64,000 nucleotides of DNA from Gammaproteobacteria bacterium (GTDB lineage Bacteria > Pseudomonadota > Gammaproteobacteria > SZUA-152), in assembly GCA_011321815.1 (NCBI GenBank), contig DROS01000066.1:1-64000 (forward strand), written 5' to 3'. The first letter of the stretch is position 1. The number at the start of each line of letters is the position of its first letter. The translations under genes and the position numbers were made by a program. Shown in pieces: positions 56,959 to 64,000 of the stretch. The notes below the pieces were generated by a model. It was not told the DNA's origin. It did no database searches and was given only the letters and a program-made list of their open reading frames with translations.

Positions 56959-57000
56959 CGCCCGTTCTCAGGTTGTTGTTCAAAAAATATTTGCTGTGCT

Positions 57001-57137
57001 ATGCCCGTAGCGATTGGGATTTAGGCCTCAGTGCACGCCCTGTTTCCGCCATGGCCACGTTGTTGCCCTTATTTCGCCTCGCCATCGAAAGAAAATATGA
57101 CGCATACTTAAATCGAAATCCCAAACACCACGGGTAT
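57001..57137. repeat. Palindrome-ended repeat, copy 1
   Basis: Imperfect inverted ends (ATGCCCGTAGCGATTGGGAT... and ...AATCCCAAACACCACGGGTAT) enclose a core shared with copy 2 at 57353-57476. Shared core blocks include CCATGGCC, CGTTGTTG, CCTTATTT, CCTCGCCAT and GAAAATATGACGCA. It has no protein frame and looks like a MITE-type unit. Copy 1 has decayed more than copy 2. Confidence 0.7.
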
Positions 57138-57352
57138 ATTTAGCGGAAGTATAGGCGCAATGCCTGAAAATTAATACTCAAAAATTTTTCCGTGAAGAGA
57201 ATATTATGAATGTCATTCATGGTGGCTGTGGAAGGCAATGCTTTTGTTTTTAATCATGGAACAATAAAAAAAGTATAGATAAATAATAAGGACGCATATT
57301 GTTGGAAATGTGTTGCATATTTATGCGTAAGGAAAATAAATATTATCAATAT

Positions 57353-57476
57353 ATACCCGTGGCGTTTGGGATTCAGGCCTGATTACACGCCATGGCCGCG
57401 TTGTTGTCCTTATTTCACCTCGCCATAAAGAAAATATGACGCACATTTGAACCTGAATCCCAAACGCCACGGGTAT
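57353..57476. repeat. Palindrome-ended repeat, copy 2 (perfect 25-bp arms)
   Basis: The 25 bases at 57353-57377 (ATACCCGTGGCGTTTGGGAT...) are the exact inverted complement of 57452-57476. The 124-base unit has the same core as copy 1, in the same orientation, 216 bases away. A perfect arm match suggests recent insertion or ongoing selection. No target duplication is clear from the flanks. Confidence 0.75.
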
Positions 57477-58131
57477 AGCCAGATTGCCATAATTTCATTC
57501 AGCGTTTATTCATTATCTATTCAGCCACCATTCAGTTTTTGTCCGCCTGTTTTTATATCCATATTTATTTTACTGCTTGTTGGTAGTGTTTTACGTATTA
57601 AAAGCTGTTGTTAACACTAACCTGCGTGTTTTTCTTAAACATAAATGTGGAGCATTAAATCACGAGAATTATAAAGTTAATTATAAATTAATATATTTAT
57701 AATGAAGGCGTAATTTTTATTATTTCAAGAAAAATAAATATTAAAATATTGAATTTAATTTTATAAGTTAAAAAATTACAGGTGTAATGTTTTGATAAAT
57801 AAGAATGTTGTATTTATGAGTAATGGTTTTACGCAGGGTCGGTGGGATTTTTGCGGATATAAAAACTTTTGTTCTTGATGCTAAGGTTTAATCTCGGTTG
57901 GTGGAGATCTGTATTTTTTAAATGAGTTTGTTGGTTTTTTAAAATTTAATTATTTGTCTTCAATAAAGAAACAACATTGATTGTTACAGATGGATCAGAA
58001 AATTGACTGATTATGAGTTTCATAAAGGCTTTTATTTTTTAGAGCGTAAGTTGGTATCAGTGAAATTTCAGTTATTCCACCGCCGTCGTAATATGAAATT
58101 GACTACTTAACTTCACAAGGACAATGATCCC
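57477..58131. other. AT-rich gene-free region upstream of the PKD protein gene
   Basis: About 650 bases of markedly AT-rich DNA (especially 57600-57790) with no credible open frame. It likely holds the regulatory region of the large secreted protein gene, which has AAGGA 10 bases before its ATG. I did not find a cyclic di-GMP riboswitch pattern. 56959-57000 and 57138-57352, beside the repeats, are also gene-free. Confidence 0.45.
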
Positions 58132-61100
58132 ATGTTAAAGAAATCGAGCGCTATGGTTTTTTCGCGGCACAAGAAACTGTACGGCATTACATCGCTTGTC
58201 GTCTTGGGCTGCTTTACTCAAAATGCAATCGCTGAAACAGCGTTTGAGCCACAGGTTGAATACGCAATTTCCGGGACTGATCCAATCAAGATTGTTTTGG
58301 GCGACTTCAATAATGACGGTATTGATGATATTGCAACGAGCCTGGCCGATGGCGCCACTGGTGGTAGCGTATCAATATTGTTTGGTACGAATGGCGGCGA
58401 ATTTGCCAATCATCTTCAAGTGCCAATAACTAACGGAAGTGGAGAGAGTTATGTTCCCGCCGGTTTAGTTGGCGGGGATTTTAATGGTGATGGGCGTCTG
58501 GATCTGGCCGTGACTGCGGGTGGCTCCAATCTTGCTGATGTACATGTGTACCTTAATACCGCTGCTGGTGATGTGAGCTTTTCATACTCGACAACACTCG
58601 TAAGTGGAGGGGTTCCCGCCGTAGCGGTGGTGGCTTCTGACCTTGATAATGACGGCAACGTGGATCTTGCTGTGGCCAATAACGTTGCTGCTACGGGTGT
58701 TGGTGTATCGATGTTTATGGGTAATGGTGACGGTACGTTTTCGGTTGCCCAGAACCTTGGGGCGACAGAGGGAGTGGAAGCGACCGGTATTCTCGCCATT
58801 GATGTCGATAGGGACAATGATATTGATCTGGTGACGCCAAGACTGGTTTTGCATAATGATGGAAATGCTGGCTTCGATGTCAGTAATCAGCTGGAGCGGC
58901 AAGGTACACCGTTGCATATCGTATCTGTTGACTTTAATCAGGATACCTGGCCAGACGTTGTCCTGAGTGGAGAGGGTGGGCTGGGTACTTATGAAAACCA
59001 GTCCGGGATTTTCAGTGCCGTGGACCGGGGTCTGGAAGACGGTATTTTGCGTGGGCACACTGCGGGTGATTTTAATCTTGATGGCAATGCTGATGTCGCT
59101 TTTGTCAGAGAAGATACAGATGAGTTGCGGATTTTCCTCGGTGATGGCACGGGTGTGCTGGCGCGGGACACACCGCTCATTTTTTCCGTGGGTAATGAAC
59201 CGCAAAATATAGTCAGTGGTGATTTTAATAACGATGGCATGCTGGATATCGCGGTGCCGAATCGCAATGCCGGGTCACCTACGGTTTCCGTGTTATTACA
59301 ACATGACCCGAATGCTCCGCCAAATGAATTACCTGTTGCAGACATCGGTGGCCCATATGACGGTACGGTTGATGTTGCCGTGCAGTTTGATGGCTCTGCC
59401 TCATCCGATCCCGACGGTACAATTGTATCTTATAATTGGGACTTCGGTGATGGCACAACTGGCACAGGCCCAACGCCGACAAATACCTATACCGAGGCTG
59501 GTACGTTTGATGTGACTCTGACGGTCACGGATGATGCCGGTGAAACAGACTCAGTCAGCACAACCGTGACGATTGTTGCCGCAGCCAACCAGCCGCCGGT
59601 TGCCGATCCGGGCGGTCCCTATAATGGTACGGTCGATGTTGCTGTGCAGTTTGACGGTTCCGCTTCATCCGATCCCGATGGCGCCATTGCTTCCTATAGC
59701 TGGGATTTCGGTGATGGTACGACTGGCACGGGCGCAACGCCGACCAAGGCCTACGCTGAAGCGGGCACATTTGATGTGACCCTGACAGTCACCGATGACG
59801 CCGGGGAAACAAATTCGGTCAGTACGACGGTGGAAATTATTGCCGCAGCCAACCAGCCGCCGGTTGCCGATCCGGGTGGTCCCTATAATGGTACGGTCGA
59901 TGTTGCTGTGCAGTTTGACGGTTCCGCTTCATCCGATCCCGATGGCGCCATTGCCGCCTATAGTTGGGATTTCGGTAATGGTACAACCGGCACAGGTCCA
60001 ACGCCGGCCACTACTTATACTGAGGCTGGCACATTTAATGTGACCCTGACGGTAACGGATGACGACGGCGAAACAAACTCGGTGAGCACAACCGTAACGA
60101 TTAGCGCCGCAGCCAACCAGCCGCCGGTTGCAAACCCCGGTGGTCCCTATAATGGTACTGTTGGCAGCGCCGTACAGTTTAATGGGACAGCTTCATCTGA
60201 CCCCGATGGCGCCATTGCCGCCTATAGTTGGGATTTCGGTAATGGTACAACCGGTACAGGTCCAACACCGGCCACTACTTATACTGAGGCTGGCACATTT
60301 AATGTGACCCTGACAGTAACGGATGACGACGGCGCGACAAACTCGGTGAGCACAACCGTAACGATTAGCGCCGCAGCCAACCAGCCGCCGGTTGCAAACC
60401 CCGGTGGTCCCTATAATGGTACTGTTGGCATCGCCGTACAGTTTAACGGGGCAGCTTCATCTGACCCCGATGGCACCATTGCCGCCTATAGCTGGGATTT
60501 CGGTAATGGTACAACCGGCACAGGTCCAACGCCGGCCACTACTTATACTGAGGCTGGCACATTTAATGTAACCCTGACGGTAACGGATGACGACGGTGCG
60601 ACAAACTCGGTGAGCACAACTGCGGTGATCGGTACTGTTGCCAATCAGCCGCCGGTTGCAAACCCGGGTGGCCCCTATAATGGTACTGTTGGCACTGCGG
60701 TACAGTTCGATGGTTCGGCCTCTTCCGATGTTGATGGCAGCATTGTTTCCTATAGCTGGGACTTTGGTAATGGCCTGATTGGTACGGGGGAAACACCGAC
60801 GGCAACCTATGCAGAGGCCGGCACATTTAATGTGACCCTGACGGTTATGGATAATCTCGGTGCAACAAATTCGGTGAGTACAACCGTGGAAATTGTTGCT
60901 GCGGATAACCAGTTGCCTGTTGCAAATCCGGGCGGTCCATACAAAGGTTTTGTTGACATTATTGTATTGTTCAACGGCTTTTTCTCATCGGACCCTGACG
61001 GGAAAATTGTTTCCTATAGCTGGGACTTTGGTGATGGTGGTGTAGGCGAAGGTGCAAGCCCGATTCATACCTACACTGAAGAAGGAACCTACGATGTTAC

Positions 61101-61278
61101 GTTGACAGTAACGGATGATGATGGTGGCACCAATACGGCCAGCACCACCATCAAGGTTGTCAATGGTGGCGGTGGTGCTTTTTCCTTTGGCTCCCTGGCT
61201 GGGTTTTCATTGCTGATGATGAAGCTTCTGACTCGTAAAAACAGTAACGAAGATTCTGATAGCGATGTCGATCATTAG
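58132..61278 (+). CDS. Large secreted FG-GAP/PKD-repeat protein with GlyGly-CTERM-like tail
   Basis: A 1048-residue exported protein. A signal peptide ends near NAIAE (residue 36). Residues about 45-390 hold seven FG-GAP/VCBS-type repeats, each with a calcium loop (GDFNNDGIDD, GDFNGDGRLD, SDLDNDGNVD, IDVDRDNDID, VDFNQDTWPD, GDFNLDGNAD, GDFNNDGMLD). Residues about 398-1010 are seven PKD domains (WDFGDG/WDFGNG and TFNVTLTVTDD). The end has NGGGGAFSF, a hydrophobic segment and a basic KLLTRK, like a GlyGly-CTERM sorting signal, then a 15-residue acidic tail. Probably adhesive or surface-associated; function unknown. Confidence 0.9.
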   Translation: MLKKSSAMVFSRHKKLYGITSLVVLGCFTQNAIAETAFEPQVEYAISGTDPIKIVLGDFNNDGIDDIATSLADGATGGSVSILFGTNGGEFANHLQVPITNGSGESYVPAGLVGGDFNGDGRLDLAVTAGGSNLADVHVYLNTAAGDVSFSYSTTLVSGGVPAVAVVASDLDNDGNVDLAVANNVAATGVGVSMFMGNGDGTFSVAQNLGATEGVEATGILAIDVDRDNDIDLVTPRLVLHNDGNAGFDVSNQLERQGTPLHIVSVDFNQDTWPDVVLSGEGGLGTYENQSGIFSAVDRGLEDGILRGHTAGDFNLDGNADVAFVREDTDELRIFLGDGTGVLARDTPLIFSVGNEPQNIVSGDFNNDGMLDIAVPNRNAGSPTVSVLLQHDPNAPPNELPVADIGGPYDGTVDVAVQFDGSASSDPDGTIVSYNWDFGDGTTGTGPTPTNTYTEAGTFDVTLTVTDDAGETDSVSTTVTIVAAANQPPVADPGGPYNGTVDVAVQFDGSASSDPDGAIASYSWDFGDGTTGTGATPTKAYAEAGTFDVTLTVTDDAGETNSVSTTVEIIAAANQPPVADPGGPYNGTVDVAVQFDGSASSDPDGAIAAYSWDFGNGTTGTGPTPATTYTEAGTFNVTLTVTDDDGETNSVSTTVTISAAANQPPVANPGGPYNGTVGSAVQFNGTASSDPDGAIAAYSWDFGNGTTGTGPTPATTYTEAGTFNVTLTVTDDDGATNSVSTTVTISAAANQPPVANPGGPYNGTVGIAVQFNGAASSDPDGTIAAYSWDFGNGTTGTGPTPATTYTEAGTFNVTLTVTDDDGATNSVSTTAVIGTVANQPPVANPGGPYNGTVGTAVQFDGSASSDVDGSIVSYSWDFGNGLIGTGETPTATYAEAGTFNVTLTVMDNLGATNSVSTTVEIVAADNQLPVANPGGPYKGFVDIIVLFNGFFSSDPDGKIVSYSWDFGDGGVGEGASPIHTYTEEGTYDVTLTVTDDDGGTNTASTTIKVVNGGGGAFSFGSLAGFSLLMMKLLTRKNSNEDSDSDVDH
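59323..61166 (+). repeat. Seven in-frame 264-bp tandem repeats (PKD domains)
   Basis: The repeat starts at 59323, 59587, 59851, 60115, 60379, 60643 and 60907, exactly 264 bases (88 codons) apart, with each unit starting at the AATGAA/AACCAG codons before PPVA. Units 3 to 5 are nearly identical in DNA, while the first and last are more diverged, a sign of recent amplification or gene conversion in the middle. The number of units may vary between strains. Confidence 0.9.
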
Positions 61279-61305: not shown

Positions 61306-61336
61306 GAAATGGTGCAGGTTTAACCTGCACCATTTC
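61306..61336 (+). terminator. Perfect 15-bp hairpin after the PKD protein gene
   Basis: GAAATGGTGCAGGTT at 61306-61320 and its exact inverted complement at 61322-61336 form a palindrome centred on one T. The stem ends in ATTTC with only three T, so it is a likely but atypical intrinsic terminator for the gene ending at 61278, 28 bases upstream. Confidence 0.7.
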
Positions 61337-61652
61337 TGGATTGAAGCGTGACCATCACTCAAAGCGCTGTTGTTTTTTTGTGACAGTGTTGATGTTTTCT
61401 ACAGTAAATACAGTTACGTATTGCCTGTGCCAGAGCGAAGATTCAGGCAATTAAGCAGTCGTACACAAACAAGAGGTTCTATAATATGAAAAATCCTGTT
61501 AAGTAAACTGATTTTGCGAAAATTATTTAGGGGAAAACCAGGCGCAAATTATTAGGTTTAAGCAAAGGAGCGTATCGTACATTTACAATCATTGAAAAAT
61601 GTAAACTAAAAAAATCCTCTTCATAAAAATGGTATTTGTAAAGGACATTGAT
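61337..61652. other. Intergenic region upstream of the tsdB-like gene
   Basis: No gene is evident. TATAAT at 61480-61485 could be a -10 box, but no good -35 lies 17 bases upstream. A tiny frame, ATG at 61486 with six codons (MKNPVK), follows AAGAGG and overlaps this box. The promoter of the tsdBA-SulP group should lie here. Confidence 0.35.
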
Positions 61653-62477
61653 ATGGAACCCGGTAGTAATATTAAACGTTCTTTAGTGACAGATTTAAGC
61701 AATATATCAGGATGGGTTATTGTCTCGGCCGTATTAATTGCTCTTTTTTTTATTGTCTTTCAGTTGGTATCCCCTTTTTCTTCCGTTGCTTCTCTGGAAG
61801 TACATCGCTTGGCTGGAAAACAACTGGCCTTGGGTGGTCGTGCCGATATTCCGGCTTGTGCTTCCTGTCATGGTCTTCAAGGTCAAGGGAATGAAAAAAC
61901 AGCAATTCCCAGACTGGCTGGATTGCATCCTGATTACATTAAAAAGCAATTGGAAGATTATGCGCGGAGCCCTTTGAAAACACGGGCCGCTGTTGAGCCC
62001 ATTGCGCGTGATTATATTAAAACGCCTCGAACTTATGGTGACTTGACCGTATTCACACCGGGTATCCGCCAACATTCCAGCATGAATAAACTGGCCAGAA
62101 TGCTAAGCGCTGAAGACCGGCATAATCTGGCGGTCTATTATAGCGAATTGACTTTTGTCGCCGCTCCGAAGGCATATGATTTTGAAACTCTTGAACGGGG
62201 TGAGGATCTGGCATTACGTGGAAAACCGGAATACGGGTTGCCTGCTTGTGATTCCTGTCACGGACCCCGAGGGCAAGGCTTTGGGGCAATTTTCCCACCT
62301 TTGGTGGGGCAGCCTGTTGCCTACATTATTGCCCAAATCAACCATTGGCAAACCGGAAAACGGGACAATGACCATTTGGCGCTAATGAGAAATGTCGCTG
62401 ATCAACTTACCGATGGCGATAAAGTTAATGTGGCTGCGTACTATGACAATTTGTCATATTCCGTTAATCGTGAGTAA
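61653..62477 (+). CDS. Diheme cytochrome c4-like protein (TsdB-like)
   Basis: A 274-residue protein with an N-terminal membrane helix (about 19-40) and two cytochrome c domains. Heme motifs are CASCH at 69-73 and CDSCH at 199-203. The distal methionines fit HSSMNKLARMLSAED and LALMRNVADQL, as in cytochrome c4. ATG 61653 has AAAGGAC upstream; ATG 61629 is in frame. Directly upstream of and overlapping (by one base) a TsdA-like gene, it is likely the electron acceptor TsdB. The membrane anchor is longer than the usual cleaved signal. Confidence 0.75.
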   Translation: MEPGSNIKRSLVTDLSNISGWVIVSAVLIALFFIVFQLVSPFSSVASLEVHRLAGKQLALGGRADIPACASCHGLQGQGNEKTAIPRLAGLHPDYIKKQLEDYARSPLKTRAAVEPIARDYIKTPRTYGDLTVFTPGIRQHSSMNKLARMLSAEDRHNLAVYYSELTFVAAPKAYDFETLERGEDLALRGKPEYGLPACDSCHGPRGQGFGAIFPPLVGQPVAYIIAQINHWQTGKRDNDHLALMRNVADQLTDGDKVNVAAYYDNLSYSVNRE

Positions 62478-63400
62478 TGCAAATGAAGTGGTTTTTTTTG
62501 CAATGGTTTTTGGTTTTCAGTTTTTATAGTGTGGGTATATTGCCTGCTGTAGCACAAGAGATTGGACAAAGCCTGGATAGTCTTGAGGTCAGGCCCAGTC
62601 TGGTGAATCCGCGACTCAGTTTACCTACCCAGTTAACCCAGGTGCATGTGATCAGTCCCGGCGAATATTTTGCACCACCGCTGGTGGCGGATATTCCTGA
62701 TGACAGGTTCGGCGATATGGTAAGAATGGGGCGTAATATTTTTGTCAATACAGGTGTCTATGCTGAACGTTATGCAGGTAACGGGTTAAATTGTTCCAGC
62801 TGTCATTTGCAGGAGGGCCGCAAACCTCACGGTATTCCTTTATGGGCCGCCTATGGAAGATACCCAATGTATCGCCACAAAACCCGCACAGTGGTCACGC
62901 TTGAAGAACGTATTCAGGATTGTTTTATATACAGCATGGATGGTATTGCACCGACGCTGGATGCGCCGGAGATGAAAGCATTGGTCACTTATACAAAATG
63001 GCTGTCAAAAGGTGCACCTGTGGGGGTGGATCTTCCGGGGCGTGGCCTCCCCAATGTAAGTCGTACACAGGACCTGGACCCTAAGCGCGGTAAAATTGTC
63101 TATGAAACCCACTGTGAACTTTGCCATGGGAAAGATGGTAAAGGGAAAAAACATATAAATGGTGAAGGTTACATGTTCCCGCCATTATGGGGGAGGGATT
63201 CTTATAATAAAGGTTCCGGGCTACAGCGTGTCAGAACACTGGCAAAATTCATCAAGGGTAATATGCCCTTGGGGGCCAGCTTCAGTCTGAGCAATCAGGA
63301 ATCACTGGATGTGGCAATTTACATTTGGCTGCAAGAGCGTCCCAGAAACCCAAAAATGAGCTGGGCGATGGATTTCTTTTTTCCAAACATAGTGCGTTAA
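62477..63400 (+). CDS. tsdA: Diheme cytochrome, thiosulfate dehydrogenase TsdA-like
   Basis: Periplasmic diheme enzyme of 307 residues with a signal peptide (cleavage after AVA, residue 26). Heme 1 is CSSCH at 106-110 in NGLNCSSCHLQEGR, and heme 2 is CELCH at 213-217 with the distal methionine in GNMPLG. The block LEERIQDCF...SMDG carries cysteine 149, 39 residues after the heme 1 histidine, where TsdA has its unusual axial cysteine ligand. It would join two thiosulfates to tetrathionate or the reverse. The ATG overlaps the TsdB-like stop (TAATG). Confidence 0.78.
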   Translation: MQMKWFFLQWFLVFSFYSVGILPAVAQEIGQSLDSLEVRPSLVNPRLSLPTQLTQVHVISPGEYFAPPLVADIPDDRFGDMVRMGRNIFVNTGVYAERYAGNGLNCSSCHLQEGRKPHGIPLWAAYGRYPMYRHKTRTVVTLEERIQDCFIYSMDGIAPTLDAPEMKALVTYTKWLSKGAPVGVDLPGRGLPNVSRTQDLDPKRGKIVYETHCELCHGKDGKGKKHINGEGYMFPPLWGRDSYNKGSGLQRVRTLAKFIKGNMPLGASFSLSNQESLDVAIYIWLQERPRNPKMSWAMDFFFPNIVR

Positions 63401-64000
63401 ATGATGATGGCTGCCAAATCAAAATGGATTTATGGATTGTTTCCTTTCTTGCGCTGGATGTTGATGCTCAACCGGGAAACGGTGAAGGCGGATATTATTG
63501 CAGGCATGACCGCCGGGGTGTTGATTTTGCCGCAAGCCATTGCGCTTGCAACATTAGCGGGTCTGCCACCTGAGTATGGGCTGTATACCTCGATATTTCC
63601 TGTTATGTTTGCTGCTTTGTTTGGTTCATCCTGGCATGCCATGTCTGGCCCCAACACGGCACTAAGCATACTTATCGCTTTCACAATTGCCCCATATGCC
63701 AGCATTGCCTCACCGGAGTGGATTCAGTATGCCATTACGCTGGCATTCATGGCGGGTGTTATCCAGGTTTCATTAGGTTTGTTACGCCTTGGCATTATAT
63801 TCAATTATTTTTCCCAAACCGTTACGGTCGCGCTGATCACCGGCGTTGGGGTCATTATTATTGTTTCCCAATTAGGCAACTTTATGGGGGTCTTGATGAA
63901 TATCGCTGAACCGATAGAAGATGCCATTCCCCAGGTTGTTTATGGTATGTCAAGGGCTAATGGGTTTGCTGTGTCTGTGGGTATTGTTACTGTAATTTCG
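63401..64000 (+). CDS. SulP family anion transporter (partial)
   Basis: First 200 codons of an integral membrane transporter, cut by the window end. The sequence FPFLRWML...VKADIIAGMTAGVLILPQAIA and LAGLPPEYGLYTSIFP, then FGSSWHAMSGPNTALSILI, is the SulP/SLC26 N-terminal pattern, with several helices. The ATG at 63401 follows the TsdA-like stop directly, so it is likely co-transcribed. The substrate could be sulfate or another anion; the neighbours suggest sulfur compounds. Confidence 0.9.
   Translation, partial: MMMAAKSKWIYGLFPFLRWMLMLNRETVKADIIAGMTAGVLILPQAIALATLAGLPPEYGLYTSIFPVMFAALFGSSWHAMSGPNTALSILIAFTIAPYASIASPEWIQYAITLAFMAGVIQVSLGLLRLGIIFNYFSQTVTVALITGVGVIIIVSQLGNFMGVLMNIAEPIEDAIPQVVYGMSRANGFAVSVGIVTVIS

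Follow-up and report, generated by a model that had tools for sequence, protein, structure and literature searches.

The window (the whole 64,000-nucleotide stretch of gammaproteobacterial DNA that was analysed) contains, on its forward strand, a gene for a secreted protein composed of FG-GAP and PKD repeats. The open reading frame begins with ATG, ends with TAG, and codes for 1,048 amino acids. The mature protein contains no cysteine and has a pI of about 4.05; its mass is only 102 kDa, so that the word "giant" in the preliminary description was an overstatement. The architecture proposed there, consisting of a signal peptide, seven FG-GAP repeats with calcium loops, seven PKD domains, and a tail with glycine-rich, hydrophobic, and basic parts, was recovered in full. 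The features of the locus are as follows:

58132..61278, + strand: gene of the FG-GAP/PKD secreted protein with a GlyGly-CTERM-like tail (open reading frame, Pfam, orthologues under purifying selection)
58132..58233, + strand: signal peptide, residues 1-34, MLKKSSAMVFSRHKKLYGITSLVVLGCFTQNAIA followed by ET (inspection, hydropathy, kept in orthologues)
58234..59325, + strand: head, seven FG-GAP repeats with calcium-type loops, predicted integrin-alpha-like beta-propeller (Pfam, loops, AlphaFold, Foldseek, VIA-align)
59326..61164, + strand: stalk, seven tandem PKD domains of 88 amino acids each (Pfam PKD_4, spacing, internal identity)
61165..61239, + strand: GlyGly-CTERM-like sorting signal GGGGAFSFGSLAGFSLLMMKLLTRK, with a glycine motif, a short hydrophobic helix, and basic residues (lineage-specific HMM, orthologous tails)
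61240..61275, + strand: acidic extension NSNEDSDSDVDH after the basic residues (acidic, histidine-containing end kept in three complete orthologues)
61307..61336, + strand: inverted repeat AAATGGTGCAGG-TTTAA-CCTGCACCATTT, 3' of the stop codon (sequence)

Inspection of the N-terminus revealed a basic n-region, a hydrophobic core, and a cleavage-like site between AIA and ET. Residues 16-34 form a hydropathy peak that is, together with the C-terminal helix, one of the two strongest in the protein, and no further internal transmembrane segment was seen by inspection or in the hydropathy profile. The inverted repeat downstream of the gene is a possible transcription stop or stem-loop, with no long T-run on its 3' side; scans for promoters and terminators gave no scores above those of shuffled sequences. 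Upstream of the gene, two copies of a 129-139-bp palindromic element are located at window positions 57000-57138 and 57351-57479. The element carries terminal inverted repeats of ca. 26 bp (TACCCGTGGCGTTTGGGATTCAGG). It has 68 matches in the genome, some of them paired as the two arms of a single copy, which amounts to dozens of related copies, complete or partial; the element looks like a MITE or a REP-type repeat.

In the head, Pfam FG-GAP_3 matched seven stretches (112 bits), and exactly seven DxDxDG-type loops were found, at residues 58, 116, 170, 224, 267, 313, and 364. Five of the loops have the full motif, while the fourth (DVDRDNDID) and the fifth (DFNQDTWPD) are degenerate. An AlphaFold2 model of the head, built from 13 sequences, was nearly all beta (mean pLDDT 86.8, pTM 0.88) and was aligned by VIA-align with integrin alpha propellers with Z scores of 31-32.5 over ca. 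335 residues (rmsd of ca. 3 Å). Foldseek matches of the head also include CRTAC1, the GlcNAc-binding Psathyrella lectin, and Bap1 of V. cholerae. A PDB sequence search with the FG-GAP/PKD protein returned weak matches to secreted esterases only. The head is thus predicted to be a seven-bladed propeller of the integrin alpha type, probably stabilised by calcium; the modelled fold fits a binding module, and the identity of the ligand is not given by the fold. The stalk that follows is highly regular: Pfam PKD_4 matched seven stretches (535 bits), the GGPY sequence that starts each unit occurs exactly seven times (residues 406, 494, 582, 670, 758, 846, and 934), with a spacing of exactly 88 amino acids, and units 3-5 are up to 91% identical at the DNA level.

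When the first 411 amino acids were used as a query, proteins with 82-84% identity were found in 4 of 11 congeneric genomes; the three orthologues with intact 3' ends keep all parts of the protein. The complete proteins contain 7, 7, 6, and 6 PKD units, two complete orthologues being one unit shorter, and such one-unit differences would fit expansion and loss of tandem repeats. The dN/dS ratio in the head and in the last PKD unit is ca. 0.1, indicating purifying selection. Where the contigs of congeners are long enough, the gene is preceded by prmA and DsbB/thioredoxin-like genes and followed by two cytochrome c genes and a SulP transporter gene. In a broader set of genomes, heads with more than 60% identity were present in three named MAGs only, the others being generic FG-GAP proteins (ca. 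26-39%); searched plasmids yielded just generic FG-GAP proteins (ca. 30-43%), and a search of the gene's own genome for paralogues revealed none.

An orthologue from another genus of the same family (genus g4; G014, L021/L065) has a head 63-65% identical to that of the window protein; its gene, too, has the cytochrome c and SulP genes as neighbours, with the arrangement flipped. In contrast to the window protein, it contains four Calx-beta domains instead of PKD domains, and ends with a CFI-box-CTERM (NF041770, 104.7 bits) instead of a GlyGly-CTERM signal; its genome also encodes a rhombosortase. Within the family, CFI-box-CTERM has a sporadic distribution, with 7 of 24 genomes positive and the window's genome negative; a literature search on it found no work. 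Exchange of sorting tails has a precedent: GlyGly-CTERM, LPXTG, and PEP-CTERM signals occur on one protein family (PMC3237569). The swap of stalk and tail on a conserved head provides a natural experiment on the possible role of CFI-box-CTERM as a surface anchor.

The genes downstream (window 61629-64000; L018 9291-13428) code for two cytochrome c proteins, one of them SoxA/TsdA-like, and a SulP-type transporter, to which the congeners add a small protein that looks DsrE-like. Together they may form a sulfur-oxidation module, associated in both genera with the surface protein. The SulP-type transporters of congeners (L018 11090-12988; L019 8636-10525) carry at their ends a long tandem repeat of HQD (HQDHQDHQD...), which is probably a low-complexity or metal-binding tail.

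The tail of the window protein reads VVNGGGGAFSFGSLAGFSLLMMKLLTRK followed by NSNEDSDSDVDH or, in a longer form, NGGGGAFSFGSLAGFSLLMMKLLTRK and then NSNEDSDSDVDH. Its hydrophobic segment is the top hydropathy peak of the protein, yet it is modest (1.44) and short, and contains one lysine. Directly before the helix lies a glycine motif, GGGGAF in the window protein and GGGAF in the three orthologues, with no cysteine. The complete orthologues have a much more canonical tail end, GGGAFGPFAGLALLMMMGLRARR; in full, their tails read GGGAFGPFAGLALLMM(M)MGLRARR, with an Asn/Asp/His-rich end that closes in -DH or -NH. The basic cluster after the helix is clear in the orthologues (LRARR) and weak in the window protein (TRK, and K within the helix). 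A GlyGly-CTERM layout such as that of the orthologous tails has been set out previously (PMC3237569).

The standard GlyGly-CTERM model, TIGR03501, gave no match to the window tail at any reported E-value, and scored the orthologous tails at 7.2-11.8 bits, below the curated cut-off of 15.5 bits. Run against the gene's own genome at E<=10, it produced three low-scoring matches, one of which was the GlyGly tail of an alginate-lyase-like protein and none of which was in the FG-GAP/PKD gene. TIGR03501 is known to miss true members, and its authors added low scorers through homologous alignments (PMC3237569); we therefore built a lineage profile from 19 GlyGly-CTERM tails found within this bacterial family, one of them in the window's own genome and 18 in others, with the FG-GAP/PKD gene family excluded. 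The window tail scored 15.7 bits and the orthologues 20-23 bits with this profile, compared to at most 10.0 bits for 500 shuffled versions of the window tail, which control for composition only, and 10.1 bits for the best unrelated tail not used in training, that of a PEP-CTERM protein. A search of the own genome with a similar profile of 20 family tails (A4) at E<=10 did not list the window gene, and the case therefore rests on the orthologues and on the targeted lineage-profile test. The resemblance to GlyGly-CTERM proteins suggested in the preliminary description was thus largely borne out: the glycine-rich/hydrophobic/basic layout is there, the orthologues are much more canonical, and the family-specific profile accepts both the window and the orthologous tails, while the standard model does not, and the basic cluster of the window protein is weak. 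A result below the TIGR03501 cut-off is a matter of formal label, not of biology.

An acidic tail after the basic cluster, singled out earlier as unusual, is real. An acidic, histidine-containing end of 12-14 residues is common to all four proteins, the window protein and its three complete orthologues; because it is conserved within the genus, it is not a sequencing error. As a result of this end, the net charge past the helix is -3 in the window protein and 0, +1, and -2 in the orthologues, versus uniformly positive values (+1 to +8) in 21 GlyGly-CTERM tails of the family used for comparison. Extensions of 8-31 residues past the helix occur in several other tails of the family, none of them net acidic; in GlyGly-CTERM proteins described in the literature, the helix is followed by zero to five residues (PMC3237569). 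The acidic end would leave with the cut helix, and any effect of it could therefore concern only insertion into the membrane, timing, or recognition, and could not extend to the mature protein.

The genome contains one rhombosortase (TIGR03902, 155 bits versus a cut-off of 84) with the motifs GLSG and AH, whose presence had been named beforehand as a check on the sorting hypothesis; a PDB sequence search with it gave no informative match. The gene is divergent from gspG-gspH-gspI-gspJ-gspK-gspL-gspM. GspG, H, I, J, K, and L scored above their cut-offs and a GspM-like protein below; the GspD secretin (610 bits) is encoded elsewhere, and we conclude that a type II secretion system is encoded in the genome. 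Of the 23 family genomes, 22 encode a rhombosortase; the one without it is an assembly of 80% completeness. The rhombosortase gene adjoins type II pseudopilin genes (gspG/gspH) in all seven family loci examined (L022 4747-11209; L024-L029), and in other gammaproteobacterial families a pilin-like gene was observed within ca. 1.5 kb of rhombosortase in 7 of 28 loci (L159, L169, L172, L173, L175, L178, L181). The searched text of the 2011 description of rhombosortase (PMC3237569) makes no mention of a pseudopilin gene neighbourhood. This recurrent adjacency supports coupling of cutting and export.

GlyGly-CTERM-like tails are also present on at least three further proteins of the genome: an alginate-lyase-like protein (SASGGGGGALGALFGSSLILLAFRRRRNAA), its paralogue (AGGGALNPFTGFVLMVGVILVWRRR), and a Ser/Asp/Gly-repeat protein (SGGGGKLSRLFLLLLIVILVMRKN). 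A protein of 1,210 amino acids that contains GGGGGGS may be a further candidate, although its tail is weaker. In the alginate-lyase-like paralogue (L150 1523-1846), the GlyGly tail is preceded by a long short-period repeat that is open in several frames on both strands, possibly a slippage-prone linker. Two proteins encoded near each other have PEP-CTERM-type ends (L004 916-1569, + strand, and 1987-2781, - strand), and an exosortase system may exist alongside rhombosortase in this genome.

Taken together, these data make it likely, in our judgement, that the window protein is a stalked protein exported by type II secretion, cut by rhombosortase, and anchored at the cell surface. The analysis itself establishes the parts of the protein, the genes for the cutting enzyme and for secretion, and conservation; cutting, C-terminal modification, export, display at the surface, and binding of a ligand are inferred steps. 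The Sec signal peptide would direct the protein to the periplasm, and the GlyGly-CTERM-type C-terminal helix would retain it in the inner membrane up to the moment when rhombosortase, whose gene adjoins gspG, makes its cut close to the glycine motif; the acidic end would stay cytosolic and be discarded with the cut helix. VesB of Vibrio cholerae is cut by rhombosortase at its GlyGly-CTERM, acquires a glycerophosphoethanolamine-containing moiety on the end so formed, and is brought to the surface by the type II system (PMC6219818). By analogy, the new C-terminus of the window protein would probably be joined to a phosphoethanolamine-containing moiety, and the type II system would then carry the protein to the outer face. 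GlyGly-CTERM works on unrelated passengers, and passage through the outer membrane needs a second secretion signal (PMC13393428). Anchored by its C-terminus, the protein would have its PKD stalk pointing outward, again by analogy, and its propeller on display, where it would most likely bind a glycan, matrix, or surface ligand. Anchored in this way, the window protein would probably be adhesive, and the adhesin role suggested earlier is plausible from the architecture.

Three other explanations of the tail have to be weighed. Were the signal decaying or lost, the window tail would have drifted into a poor rhombosortase substrate, and the protein would be released, degraded, or handled by GlpG. 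The window tail is indeed the most divergent of the four, with its lysine in the helix, weak basic cluster, and negative cytosolic charge, and tail dN (0.25-0.28) is higher than that of the head (0.09-0.10). We nevertheless consider decay unlikely: the glycine motif, the F..G..AG..LLMM core, and the acidic end are all kept, the window tail outscores all 500 of its shuffles in the lineage profile, and tail dS is 3.9 or saturated. Synonymous change in the tail far exceeds non-synonymous change, and the tail therefore looks constrained.

It is less probable still that the helix is an ordinary, uncut membrane anchor that tethers the protein to the inner membrane, facing the periplasm. A hydrophobic segment with charged residues would do as a tail anchor, and the lack of any score with the standard CTERM model agrees with this, but the near-universal rhombosortase in the family, the other GlyGly-CTERM proteins in the genome, and the conserved glycine motif point to cleavage, and a seven-PKD stalk with a propeller is typical of extracellular proteins. 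Action of another sorting system, either exosortase/PEP-CTERM or a myxosortase-like enzyme, appears highly improbable. PEP-CTERM-like proteins are encoded in the genome (L004), and two orthologous tails score 14.7-14.8 bits with the MYXO-CTERM model (cut-off 20), above their GlyGly-CTERM scores. However, the tail has no PEP motif, and the PEP-CTERM assignment was rejected; MYXO-CTERM, which always comes with cysteine (PMC3237569), was likewise rejected, as the invariant cysteine is absent from the mature window protein and from the orthologous tails. The enzyme that is present is rhombosortase.

Sorting by rhombosortase leaves room for a more elaborate, two-part proposal. The window protein and its orthologues would represent a distinct GlyGly-CTERM variant, in which the acidic cytosolic end alters charge-based membrane retention or the timing of the rhombosortase cut, making surface display regulated; and, judging from the exchange of stalk and tail on the same head, CFI-box-CTERM would be an equivalent surface-sorting signal with an enzyme of its own. 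We regard this combination as doubtful. If surface anchoring by rhombosortase is true, a stalked, integrin-headed protein uses a pathway whose predicted substrates are mostly hydrolases (PMC13393428). Moreover, the sorting tail is missed by the standard model, and lists of substrates drawn up for such genomes are probably incomplete.

Several known systems resemble parts of the window protein. The integrin alpha propeller, the Psathyrella velutina lectin, and Bap1 of V. cholerae have the same fold as the one predicted for the head; their identity to it is 10-20%, and a shared fold by itself does not define a function. In a sister genus, three FG-GAP proteins (L060, L061, L062) combine, like the window protein, calcium-loop FG-GAP repeats with a GlyGly-CTERM tail, and are 36-39% identical to the window head over part of its length. 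Two of the three tails score above the TIGR03501 cut-off, at 15.9 bits. These proteins differ in having eleven FG-GAP_3 stretches and a Big_9 domain with no PKD stalk, and a canonical GGGGGSASFVGLLAGLLFLGWRRR tail. With the known GlyGly-CTERM substrates (VesB; Haft and Varghese 2011, PMC3237569; PMC6219818; PMC13393428), the window protein shares a signal peptide, a glycine motif with a single C-terminal helix, and basic residues, here in a weak cluster. As with those substrates, rhombosortase and type II secretion are encoded in the same genome, together with several unrelated substrates. The window protein differs from them in a tail that stays under the TIGR03501 cut-off and in its conserved acidic end of 12-14 residues, and its passenger is a propeller-stalk protein, whereas theirs is a hydrolase. 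The parts of the window protein are already known, while the conserved acidic end of its tail is unusual. The protein is best read, from its sequence, as a divergent GlyGly-CTERM protein, that is, one of a known kind with a divergent, acidic-ended signal.
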